DNA of 64,000 nt from Adhaeribacter aerolatus (GTDB lineage Bacteria > Bacteroidota > Bacteroidia > Cytophagales > Hymenobacteraceae). This document shows positions 42,584-54,950 of the stretch, in pieces. Position 1 is the first letter of the stretch, and every line of letters begins with the position of its first letter. The DNA is taken from NCBI RefSeq assembly GCF_007991635.1, contig NZ_BJYS01000008.1:1-64000 (forward strand), in the 5' to 3' direction. The position numbers and the translations under genes are program-made. Below the pieces are notes generated by a model. The model worked only from the letters and a program-made list of their open reading frames with translations, searched no databases and was not told the origin of the DNA.

Positions 42584-43797
<1,214 letters not shown>

Positions 43798-46345: not shown

Positions 46346-46384
46346 AACAAAAAAAGCCCCTCTGCATTACAGAGAGGCTTTTTA
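46346..46384 (-). terminator. Terminator of the tRNA-like RNA gene
   Basis: On the minus strand AAAAGCCTCTCTG (46370-46383 read in reverse) pairs with CAGAGGGGCTTTT (46351-46364) around a 5-base loop, followed by a run of T. It starts one to two bases after the mature 3' end of the RNA, so the gene is monocistronic. Confidence 0.88.
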
Positions 46385-46385
46385 G

Positions 46386-46499
46386 CTGTAGGGGAAGGAG
46401 TCGAACCTTCACGGAGTAGTTAGACAAGTAGCTTGTTTTGTTCTATAGATCTCCACCCCCGAGAGAGGAGGGCTTGTCTGCCAGTTTCAACACCCTACA
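46386..46499 (-). tRNA. Class II tRNA-like RNA, Leu-like body, apparent anticodon CUC, giant variable arm
   Basis: The 114-nt RNA (minus strand) folds as a cloverleaf. The 7-bp acceptor stem is TGTAGGG with CCCTACA, followed by T8-G9. The D arm TTG/CAA has loop AAACTGGCAGA, the tRNA-Leu type. G26 precedes anticodon stem CCCTC/GGGGG with loop CTCTCTC, giving anticodon CUC (46465-46463). The T arm is GAAGG/CCTTC with loop TTCGACT, and the discriminator is G. CCA is not encoded. The variable region is 45 nt (46455-46411): GGAG/CTCC enclosing an ACAAG-CTA-CTTGT hairpin, against about 10-24 nt in normal class II tRNAs. CUC would read the Glu codon GAG, yet the body is Leu-like and position 37 is U rather than a purine. 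A consensus promoter and a terminator frame it. Decoding ability is uncertain. Confidence 0.75.
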
Positions 46500-46515
46500 G
46501 TGTGTTTTTCTTTTT

Positions 46516-46546
46516 CAAAGATATATAGGCTCTGGTTATTTTCAAA
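46516..46546 (-). promoter_or_regulatory. Consensus promoter of the tRNA-like RNA
   Basis: On the minus strand TTTG (46543-46546), exactly 19 bases, then TATCTTTG (46516-46523) is a perfect TTTG-N19-TAnnTTTG match. Transcription would start near 46509, about 10 bases before the RNA's acceptor stem. Confidence 0.82.
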
Positions 46547-46594
46547 ATTTATTAAATAAATTCCTAAATATTTATGTTATTTTAAATTTTATAT

Positions 46595-46631: not shown

Positions 46632-47096
46632 ATGCTCAAAAATTTAGAAATTGATAATACAGACCTTCGAATCCTGTCTCTTTTGATGGATGACGCGAAA
46701 ATGGCCTACGCTGATGTAGGAAAAGAAGTATTTGTTTCGGGCGGCACCGTGCACGTCCGGATGAAGAAAATGGAGCAAATGGGTATTGTAACCGGAACCC
46801 AATTAAAGCTTAATTATTCTAACCTCGGCTACGATATAAGCGCCTTTTTAGGTATTTACTTAAAGAAAAGCTCGATGTATGTAGAAGTGCTGGAACAATT
46901 AAAGAAAATACCGGAAGTGGTAAATGTAAATTACACCACCGGCGAATGGAGTATGTTTGCTAAACTTATTTGCAAGGACACCGCTCACCTGAAAAATGTC
47001 TTAACCGATAAAGTTCAGAAGGTGCCGGGTATACAACGCACCGAAACCTTTATTTCGCTGGAAGAAAGCATCAACCGGCCTGTTCAGCTTCTTTAA
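46632..47096 (+). CDS. Lrp/AsnC family transcriptional regulator
   Basis: A 154-residue feast/famine regulator. Residues 1-60 form the N-terminal helix-turn-helix (IDNTDLRILSLLMDDAKMAY, VHVRMKKMEQMGIVTG), and about 65-150 form the RAM amino-acid-binding domain (YDISAFLGIYLKKS, IPEVVNVNYTTGEWSMFAKL). Family members sense amino acids such as Leu, Asn or Lys and control their metabolism. Which one is sensed here cannot be read. It is divergent from the Leu-like tRNA-like gene and convergent with aspS. Confidence 0.93.
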   Translation: MLKNLEIDNTDLRILSLLMDDAKMAYADVGKEVFVSGGTVHVRMKKMEQMGIVTGTQLKLNYSNLGYDISAFLGIYLKKSSMYVEVLEQLKKIPEVVNVNYTTGEWSMFAKLICKDTAHLKNVLTDKVQKVPGIQRTETFISLEESINRPVQLL

Positions 47097-47172: not shown

Positions 47173-48927
47173 TTATTTTTTTGCCTGAAGTTGAATTTGC
47201 AATTCATCTAGTTGTTCCTGTGCAATCGTCGCAGGCGCATCAATCATTACATCACGGCCGGAATTATTCTTAGGAAAGGCAATAAAATCGCGGATTGAAT
47301 CGGCACCACCAAACAAAGAACACAGCCGGTCGAAACCGAAAGCAATGCCGCCGTGCGGAGGAGCGCCGTATTCAAACGCATTCAGCAGGAAACCAAACTG
47401 CGCCTGGGCTTCTTCGTCGGTGAAACCAAGCAATTTAAACATGGCCGCCTGCAGGGTTCGTTCGTGTATCCGGATAGAACCTCCTCCTACTTCCACGCCA
47501 TTAATTACCATGTCGTAAGCATTGGCTCGTACCGCACCCGCATTACTGTCCAGTAAATGAATGTCTTCGTGCTTCGGCGACGTAAACGGGTGGTGCATGG
47601 CAAAATAACGCTGGGCTTCTTCGTTCCACTCCAGCAACGGGAAATCCAATACCCACAGCGGTGCAAATTTATTTTTAGTGCGCAATCCCAAACGCTCTCC
47701 TATTTCCAGGCGCAGCTCCGATAAGGCTTTGCGGGTTTTATCCGGGGCACCGGCTAATACCAATATTAAATCGCCGGGTTTGGCAGCCGTGGCAACAGCC
47801 CAGCTTTGTAAATCGTCCTGGTTAAAAAACTTATCTACCGATGATTTTATGGCACCATCCGCTTCTACGCGGGCATAGATTAAGCCGGTGGCGCCTAGTT
47901 GCGGCCGTTTTACAAAATCGGTTAGTTCGTCTATCTGCTTACGCGTATAAGCCGCGCATCCGGCGGCATTTATAGCCACTACTAATTCAGCTTCGTCAAA
48001 AACCTTAAAGTTCTTTCCTTTTACCAAATCTGTCAGTTCCACAAACTTCATTTCAAAGCGGGTATCCGGCTTATCGTTGCCGTAATATTTCATGGCATCG
48101 GCGTAAGTCATCCGTGGAAAATCAGTTATTTCCAAACCTTTTACCTTGGAGAAAAGATGCTTTACCAAACCTTCGAAGGTATTCAGAATATCTTCCTGCG
48201 AAACAAAAGAAAGCTCACAATCTATTTGGGTAAATTCGGGTTGGCGGTCGGCCCGTAAGTCTTCGTCGCGAAAACACTTTACAATCTGAAAGTACTTATC
48301 GAAACCCGAAACCATTAAAAGCTGCTTAAAAGTTTGCGGCGACTGCGGCAAGGCGTAAAACTCACCGGGGTTCATACGCGAGGGCACCACAAAGTCGCGG
48401 GCGCCTTCGGGCGTAGATTTAATTAAAACGGGCGTTTCTACCTCAATAAAACCGCTGCCATCGAGGTAAGCGCGGGCTTGCTGCATCATCTGGTGCCGCA
48501 GCTCCAGGTTCTTGCGCACGGCATTGCGGCGCAAATCCAGGTAGCGAAATTTCATCCGGAGGTCATCGCCGCCGTCGGTATCGTCTTCTATTAAAAAGGG
48601 CGGCAATTTAGCCGGGTTTAGTACCGTTAAAGCCTGCACCTGTATTTCTACATCGCCGGTAGCCAGTTTATCGTTTTTAGAAATGCGCTCAATTACTACT
48701 CCACGGGCCTGTATAACATACTCCCGACCTAACTCGCGGGCGGCGGTTAATATTTCAGGGGCTGTAACACCTTCTTCCAGTTTAAGCTGGGTTAATCCGT
48801 ACCGGTCGCGGAGGTCAATCCACATCATGCCGCCTTTGTCGCGGGTTTTATGTACCCAACCGGCCAGCACCACTTCGGTGCCCACGTGTGTTATTCTTAA
48901 TTCTCCGCAGGTGTGTGTTCTAAGCAT
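47173..48927 (-). CDS. aspS: Aspartyl-tRNA synthetase
   Basis: A 584-residue class II synthetase of the bacterial type that charges tRNA-Asp. The OB-fold anticodon-binding domain (about 1-110; [19 protein letters not shown] in part) is followed by the catalytic core with motif 2 [18 protein letters not shown] (about residue 217) and motif 3 [10 protein letters not shown] (about 530). The bacterial GAD insertion lies between about 290 and 420. Length is normal. It stands alone, convergent with the Lrp/AsnC gene. Confidence 0.97.
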
Positions 48928-53275: not shown

Positions 53276-53378
53276 GATTTATAAAGAAGAGGCGAGAGAA
53301 TAGGCTCCGCGACCCTCTGGCAACCTCATCCAATTGAAAGGTGCCAAATCCTATCCCAGTAATGGGAAATATAAATTA
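53276..53378 (+). promoter_or_regulatory. SAM-I type riboswitch
   Basis: The element has the SAM-I (S-box) core: AGAGGCGAGAG on the left, CCTCTGGCAACCTC in the middle and GAAAGGTGCCAAATCC (53335-53350) on the right, the most conserved block of the class. P1 can form between ATTTATA (53277-53283) and TATAAAT (53370-53376). It precedes the polycysteine ORF and metY. S-adenosylmethionine binding would lower expression of the methionine genes. No obvious terminator hairpin follows P1, so the output step (transcription or translation) is open. Confidence 0.88.

Positions 53379-53582: not shown

Positions 53583-54950
<1,368 letters not shown>

Follow-up and report, generated by a model that had tools for sequence, protein, structure and literature searches.

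What does a bacterium do with a tRNA gene that has the body of a tRNA-Leu, the CUC anticodon of a tRNA-Glu and a transcription regulator divergent from it? Such a gene lies in the window (the whole 64,000-nucleotide stretch of Adhaeribacter aerolatus DNA that was analysed). ARAGORN called no tRNA in the window and thus missed it. At gathering score Rfam matched neither this RNA nor family members at 11 other loci, and a relaxed Rfam search returned matches at chance level only. Sequence comparison places the RNA in a family that is real, tRNA-like and widespread in Bacteroidota and in phages.

The window RNA and its signals

The features discussed here are as follows, with the evidence for each in brackets.

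46385..46499, minus strand: tRNA-like RNA with a Leu-like class II body (sequence; model R1, 129 bits; compensatory pairs in the family)
46461..46467, minus strand: anticodon loop CTCTCTC, positions 32-38, with C34 (sequence; position table of 111 members)
46411..46455, minus strand: variable region of 45 nt, stem GGAG/CTCC and a conserved inner motif (sequence; family covariation)
46516..46525, minus strand: promoter -7 box TATATCTTTG (count of TAnnTTTG upstream of family members)
46543..46547, minus strand: promoter -33 box TTTTG (sequence; spacing to the -7 box, 17 nt)
46351..46383, minus strand: intrinsic terminator, a 15-pair hairpin and then a T run (hairpin; recurrence in the family)
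46632..47096, plus strand: gene for an AsnC-type transcription regulator, divergent from the RNA (NCBIfam and PDB profile scores)
47173..48927, minus strand: aspartyl-tRNA synthetase (AspRS) gene (TIGR00459, 711 bits; a neighbour within the genus only)

A first-pass annotation, made from the letters alone, had described an intact cloverleaf with a Leu-type D arm, a 7-bp acceptor stem, a standard T loop, a CTCTCTC anticodon loop and a 45-nt variable region, and all of these read as claimed. U1 falls at 46499, G73 at 46386 and C74 at 46385. The acceptor stem is TGTAGGG/CCCTACA, the Leu-like D arm carries the loop AAACTGGCAGA, the anticodon arm is CCCTC-CTCTCTC-GGGGG, and the T arm is normal with a TTCGACT loop. 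This copy has U33 and U37 on either side of its CUC. An eighth acceptor pair, between C(-1) and G73, had also been proposed. It is possible in the window copy, but close relatives have any of the four bases at position -1 and the pair is therefore not a family feature.

The same annotation took the gene to be a stand-alone transcription unit. The boxes and the hairpin were found, and both recur across the family. The two boxes (TTTTG, 17 nt, TATATCTTTG) fit what we take to be the Bacteroidota-type promoter consensus. Of 138 upstream regions, 72 have TAnnTTTG at a distance of 5-45 nt from the RNA, against a mean of 4.5 in shuffles, and in 56 of 141 loci the last RNA is followed by a hairpin with a T run, against 0-1 in ten shuffles. 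As a single sequence the window RNA folds no better than its shuffles (z -0.98), so the case rests on comparison.

Two other parts of the window deserve a mention. A SAM riboswitch (RF00162, 72 bits) at 53276-53377 on the plus strand precedes an ORF at 53607-54950 that presumably encodes an O-acetylhomoserine sulfhydrylase. Overlapping plus-strand ORFs at 42584-43252 and 43198-43797, which we take to resemble halves of one aldo/keto reductase, may mark a frameshift or an assembly error.

A tRNA-like RNA family in Bacteroidota and phages

A DNA search within the organism's own taxonomic family, with an E limit of 0.1, gave matches in 71 of 150 genomes, a small number of these being short and chance-like. 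A covariance model (R1) was built from 27 relatives in that taxonomic family, the window RNA included, and applied to 291 order-level and 395 phylum-level genomes. The raw tallies (290/291 and 373/395) were left unused, since they include presumed tRNA-Leu of 83-88 nt at about 56-67 bits; these were assigned by length, and the two examined (L126, L127) are tRNA-Leu. Membership was set at 81 bits or more with R1, or at 82 or more in named genomes with a second model, R2. Viral copies were accepted on sequence from 65.8 bits (R2), and two short-arm copies were added by eye. In the study set of 61 loci (60 fetched plus the window), R1 made 112 matches of at least 81 bits, 109-204 nt long; the lower-scoring matches were two tRNA-Leu (61 bits) and a fragment (25 bits). 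The covariance search across Bacteroidota that the first-pass annotation had called for thus recovered a clean family.

Two to seven copies of the RNA stand in 28 of the 61 loci. Among 103 distinct aligned rows, 99.3% of pair cells are paired and 15 of 26 pairs have changed on both sides. Covariation as good was seen in 0 of 500 shuffles, for an alignment that was fitted to the model and leans towards structure. In the stem of the variable arm (V arm), three of four pairs change on both sides across the family. If the gene were a decaying copy of a tRNA-Leu, as the first-pass annotation allowed, its Leu-like D arm and V-arm attachment would be explained, but not the tandem copies, the recurring promoters and terminators, or an anticodon loop and V-arm stem that are conserved in relatives. 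We ruled this reading out on the family-wide conservation and the compensatory changes, and give it practically no credence.

A pattern scan of named genomes found at least 80 loci, and all those listed carry the RNA at 82-123 bits. The listed carriers are Bacteroidota (Hymenobacter, Pontibacter, Spirosoma, Dyadobacter, Algoriphagus, Chitinophaga, Mucilaginibacter and Neolewinella among others), the exceptions among the matches listed being one MAG labelled Ignavibacteriales and another whose title says just "bacterium". The former (locus L277) holds the RNA with a divergent AsnC gene, through either real spread outside Bacteroidia or mis-binning. R2 revealed the RNA in one further genome (G483, discussed below), and also a short-arm form of 77 nt in two genomes of the organism's own taxonomic family (G005 and G064; loci L186 and L187, both at 1501-1577), with the same acceptor and loop pattern. 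A search of plasmids with the window RNA gave no match. An open-access literature search found no account of such an RNA, and the family is apparently undescribed so far.

The pattern search also found the RNA in 69 viral contigs. R2 scored 67 whole viral copies at 65.8-106.3 bits, the copies in L216 and L252 being cut by the end of the stretch. G34, U1-A72, G2-C71 and G73 are present in 67 of 67 parsed viral copies, all of them letters left free in the search pattern. One viral member had no match among annotated phages. Some viral forms have a short arm (91-96 nt), and the two of them that were scanned were called tRNA-Asp by ARAGORN. Many viral copies carry the V-arm motif GGGTTGACCAC or GGGGTAGACCACC, the former also seen in many bacterial copies, and some (within L197-L265) have extra hairpin-like inserts in the D loop. 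At E 1e-5, AspRS, GatB, AsnB, AsnRS and AsnC were each absent from the 69 viral stretches. ARAGORN found one to about two dozen other tRNA genes in eight of nine viral contigs inspected (none in L238), and L229 and L241 each hold an ordinary tRNA-Asp and tRNA-Asn. If the RNA served to decoy or buffer AspRS or anticodon nucleases, the presence of viral copies among tRNA genes would be explained. We rate that reading as remote, as it accounts neither for the U1-A72 pair of every parsed copy nor for the linkage to AsnC or the co-occurrence with GatB.

Conserved positions and decoding

The position table was made from 111 parsed members (40 genera, 15 families) after three non-members and one N-gapped copy had been removed. 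U1-A72, G2-C71, U3-A70, U35, C36, C38, G73 and C74 are invariant in 111/111. The 7-bp acceptor stem is fully paired in all of them and the 5-bp T stem in 109. The variable region spans 39-121 nt, with U44 in 106 members and GU at 47-48 in 95. Comparison by eye with the genome's own tRNA-Leu showed the Leu-type D arm and V-arm attachment. R1 favours conserved letters, but it was trained on the organism's own taxonomic family, where position 34 is mostly not G. In the viral and named-genome loci, U35, C36 and C38 were fixed by the search pattern and were excluded there as evidence.

Every parsed member has an NUC anticodon together with G73, and none has a normal Leu anticodon, which removes the possibility, raised earlier, of an ordinary tRNA-Leu variant. 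The CUC reading was right for the window copy and does not extend to the whole family. Position 34 is G in 71 members, giving GUC, C in 17 (some lineages only), A in 16 and U in 7; at least one G34 copy is found in 30 of the 40 genera, and 40 of the 111 members lack it. Glu decoding through CUC was rejected, since position 34 varies.

In the part of the review PMC9976931 used here, the aspartate determinants are G73, G34, U35, C36 and C38, with G34 among the strong ones. The same source describes G1-C72 and G2-C71 as conserved in bacterial tRNA-Asp, the former being crucial for identity, and U1-A72 as the pair that allows amidation of Asp-tRNA-Asn. The family has the Asp determinants and U1-A72 on one RNA, and therefore joins an Asp-type anticodon loop to a GatCAB-type acceptor end.

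Is the RNA a working tRNA? A decoding tRNA is expected to have U33 and a purine at position 37, and across the family these features do not hold: position 33 is U in 85 members (C 11, G 9, A 6), and position 37 is U in 100, C in 10 and G in 1, a pyrimidine in 110 of 111. Decoding is therefore unlikely, although the window copy does keep U33. The first-pass annotation had allowed that the RNA might not decode at all and might be regulatory; it probably does not decode, and its role is probably regulatory or metabolic. A search for normal counterparts, also suggested there, found the genome's ordinary tRNAs to include Glu UUC, Asp GUC, Asn GUU and Leu UAA, UAG, CAA, CAG and GAG.

A working tRNA that decodes or mistranslates Asp or Glu codons, or that is charged with Ser by SerRS, is in our judgement improbable. 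SerRS ignores the anticodon, so Ser charging would leave the conservation of U35, C36 and C38 unexplained. The cloverleaf is intact, and SerRS is described in part of PMC7609411 as recognising a long variable arm and G73, both of which would suit this reading. It is opposed by the loop positions given above, by the normal tRNA-Asp and tRNA-Glu of the organism, and by the existence of the short-arm form.

Linkage to an AsnC-type regulator

The first-pass annotation was also justified in singling out the divergent Lrp/AsnC regulator. A gene of this type is divergent from the RNA, at a distance of 88-328 bp, in 37 of the 61 loci; 24 have no adjacent AsnC, and a non-divergent neighbouring AsnC was found in none of the 61. 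A second sample comprised 80 listed loci, seven of which were dropped for too little upstream sequence. Among the 73 listed loci that had enough, 47 have a divergent AsnC within 600 bp, 25 had no AsnC found, and in the remaining locus the ORF, as it was read, lies on the other strand and overlaps the RNA. The window regulator scores 164 bits with the NCBIfam AsnC model (PRK11179), under its cut-off of 227, and 65 bits with the next model. Its nearest solved structure is E. coli AsnC (PDB 2cg4), at 123 bits, with the next at 73.

The association extends to whole genomes. A strong AsnC (at least 225 bits) is present somewhere in 24/24 RNA-carrying genomes for which no AsnC-adjacent RNA was known beforehand, six genomes picked for an adjacent AsnC having been excluded; in one of the 24 (G392), the strong AsnC adjoins a further copy of the RNA. 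Among genomes lacking the RNA, 8 of 37 have a strong AsnC.

In E. coli, according to part of PMC4482635, AsnC activates asnA and asparagine abolishes the activation. An AsnC gene beside asnA was looked for in the bacteria studied here, and 10 asnA loci (about 1.5 kb on each side, less in L175) gave no significant match. Among the sampled loci no neighbour gene was found to be widely common to RNAs without AsnC, and among locus neighbours no widely common gene that uses Asn-RNA was found. An asparaginase gene (PF01112) lies about 0.5 kb from asnC at L409:2497-3417 and L410:8-901, in two genomes of one genus in the organism's own taxonomic family, one without the RNA (G010) and one with it (G020).

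Co-occurrence with GatB and asparagine enzymes

Why some bacteria keep GatCAB is left open in the part of PMC4206432 used here, which surveyed 547 genera, counted 67 or 68 with AsnRS, GlnRS and GatCAB, and considered that the amidotransferase may be vestigial for some. We compared 40 genomes with the RNA and 40 without, hand-picked from the family-, order- and phylum-level searches, and read GatCAB from GatB. GatB is over cut-off in 40/40 carriers versus 29/40 non-carriers as first sorted. All 40 carriers have AsnRS, and 20 have GlnRS. The genome of A. aerolatus and half of the carrier set lack GlnRS, and therefore need GatCAB anyway.

Genomes with both AsnRS and GlnRS have no standard need for GatCAB. 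Among these, GatB is present in 20/20 carriers versus 4/15 non-carriers as first sorted. One of the four exceptions, G483, proved to be a carrier (R2: 106 bits, 196 nt), and moving it gives 21/21 versus 3/14 for the 35 genomes (Fisher 9e-7, with genomes treated as independent and phylogeny uncorrected). Within the families f23 and f24, GatB is found in 6/6 carriers versus 0/4 non-carriers. G205, G385 and G523 have GatB and both synthetases without the RNA and without a strong AsnC. Two GatB-like stretches, at G385:C26:397494-398879 and G213:C6:121127-122509, sit inside open frames (1106 and 1126 aa) that may be fusions.

The AspRS gene beside the window RNA is found in six own-genus loci sampled and in 0/55 other loci, and AspRS as a general neighbour was rejected. 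At E 1e-20, 140 bacterial loci contain AspRS in five, AsnRS in one (L140) and neither GatB nor AsnB. In L140, about 6 kb separate the AsnRS gene from the RNA, and both lie together with AsnC on one 16-kb stretch.

AsnB (TIGR01536) is over cut-off in 67 of the 80 genomes, 37 of them carriers, and AsnA (TIGR00669) is present in nine, four of them carriers; the genome of A. aerolatus has both. With AsnB in 37/40 carriers, the RNA is therefore rarely the sole possible source of asparagine. Three carriers (G177, G217 and G540) have AsnRS with neither AsnA nor AsnB over cut-off, and their RNA adjoins AsnC (loci L135, L128 and L144). The RNA could be the asparagine source in these three. One non-carrier without GatB (G412) is likewise without AsnA and AsnB.

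The presence of AsnB or AsnA in most carriers, together with the AsnC linkage and the conserved inner motif of the V arm, would also suit a regulatory RNA built on a tRNA fold, in which Asp or Asn charging reports supply or a V-arm domain acts, and which would not be a biosynthetic carrier. We consider this unlikely: conservation is highest at the acceptor end and in the aminoacylation determinants, and two genomes of the organism's own taxonomic family keep the 77-nt form without a long arm.

A possible route to asparagine

The family, its invariant letters, its linkage to AsnC and its co-occurrence with GatB are established at the level of sequence comparison. On balance, we lean towards a non-decoding tRNA that is devoted to asparagine metabolism, charged by AspRS, amidated to Asn by GatCAB and controlled by AsnC. 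The first-pass annotation had thus singled out the right molecule, but this account of it is a different one. AspRS would charge the RNA with Asp through U35, C36, C38, G73 and usually G34. GatCAB, which needs U1-A72, would then turn Asp into Asn on the RNA. Two features may exclude the RNA from the ribosome, its bulky variable arm and its unusual anticodon loop, in which U33 is not constant and position 37 is a pyrimidine; exclusion would avoid the insertion of Asn at Asp codons. The divergent AsnC-type regulator would switch the RNA by asparagine, comparable to the action of E. coli AsnC on asnA. The Asn made on the RNA might be released as a free amino acid, serve as a sensor signal or be transferred to an acceptor.

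Several observations weigh against the Asp-to-Asn reading. The window copy has C34, so AspRS charging is less sure in its own genus than across the family, and U1-A72 stands where bacterial tRNA-Asp has G1-C72. G34 is lacking in 40 of the 111 members, and the models by which members were found favour the conserved letters. The organism itself has AsnA and AsnB, and three genomes with both AsnRS and GlnRS have GatB without the RNA. An adjacent AsnC is lacking in 24/61 loci and in 25/73 of those listed in the second sample, and a strong AsnC occurs in 8/37 genomes without the RNA.

The family looks like a variant form of tRNA-dependent amino-acid conversion. It shares with tRNA-dependent Asn synthesis the U1-A72 mark (111/111), GatB in all 40 sampled carriers and the proposed Asp to Asn chemistry. 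The known route, in the part of PMC4206432 used here, employs a decoding tRNA-Asn and an AspRS of relaxed specificity, whereas the present RNA joins an Asp-type loop to a class II body and to features unsuited to decoding. Like tRNA-Leu it has the D loop, the 3-bp D stem and a V arm attached as U-stem-GU, and it departs from tRNA-Leu in G73 rather than A73, the NUC anticodon, U1-A72 and the 39-121 nt variable region. GUC in most copies, C38, G73 and G2-C71 are as in tRNA-Asp, but U1-A72 in place of G1-C72, a pyrimidine at 37 and the class II body are not.

The staphylococcal cell-wall tRNA-Gly is a non-proteogenic tRNA, and the proposed likeness is that of a tRNA retained for work unrelated to translation; the two differ in amino acid, structure and regulator. 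Allo-tRNAs of the 8/4 and 9/3 types, as described in part of PMC7609411, also have a long V arm and unusual anticodons, GUC included, but the RNA has the ordinary 7/5 acceptor/T-stem branch. The arrangement around the window RNA also has a parallel in another regulator locus. E. coli asnC and asnA are laid out divergently, and the regulator here is likewise of AsnC type, but the divergent gene is an RNA and not a synthetase.

It is tempting to speculate that the product is free asparagine, synthesised on AsnC-driven non-decoding tRNA genes that are single or arrayed and also phage-borne, though we regard this as possible rather than probable. An RNA cofactor would then replace a protein enzyme, AsnC acting on asnA in E. 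coli and on the RNA in Bacteroidota, a suggestion that we offer just as tentatively.

Significance

Bacteroidota and phages share a large RNA family that had no Rfam match at the loci searched and that escapes annotation tools. It offers a candidate answer to the question of why some bacteria with AsnRS and GlnRS keep GatCAB. If the Asp-to-Asn reading is true, a tRNA can be a dedicated scaffold for amino-acid synthesis with its own metabolite-responsive regulator. If the product is free asparagine, the family would represent a route of amino-acid synthesis on a tRNA kept entirely off the ribosome.
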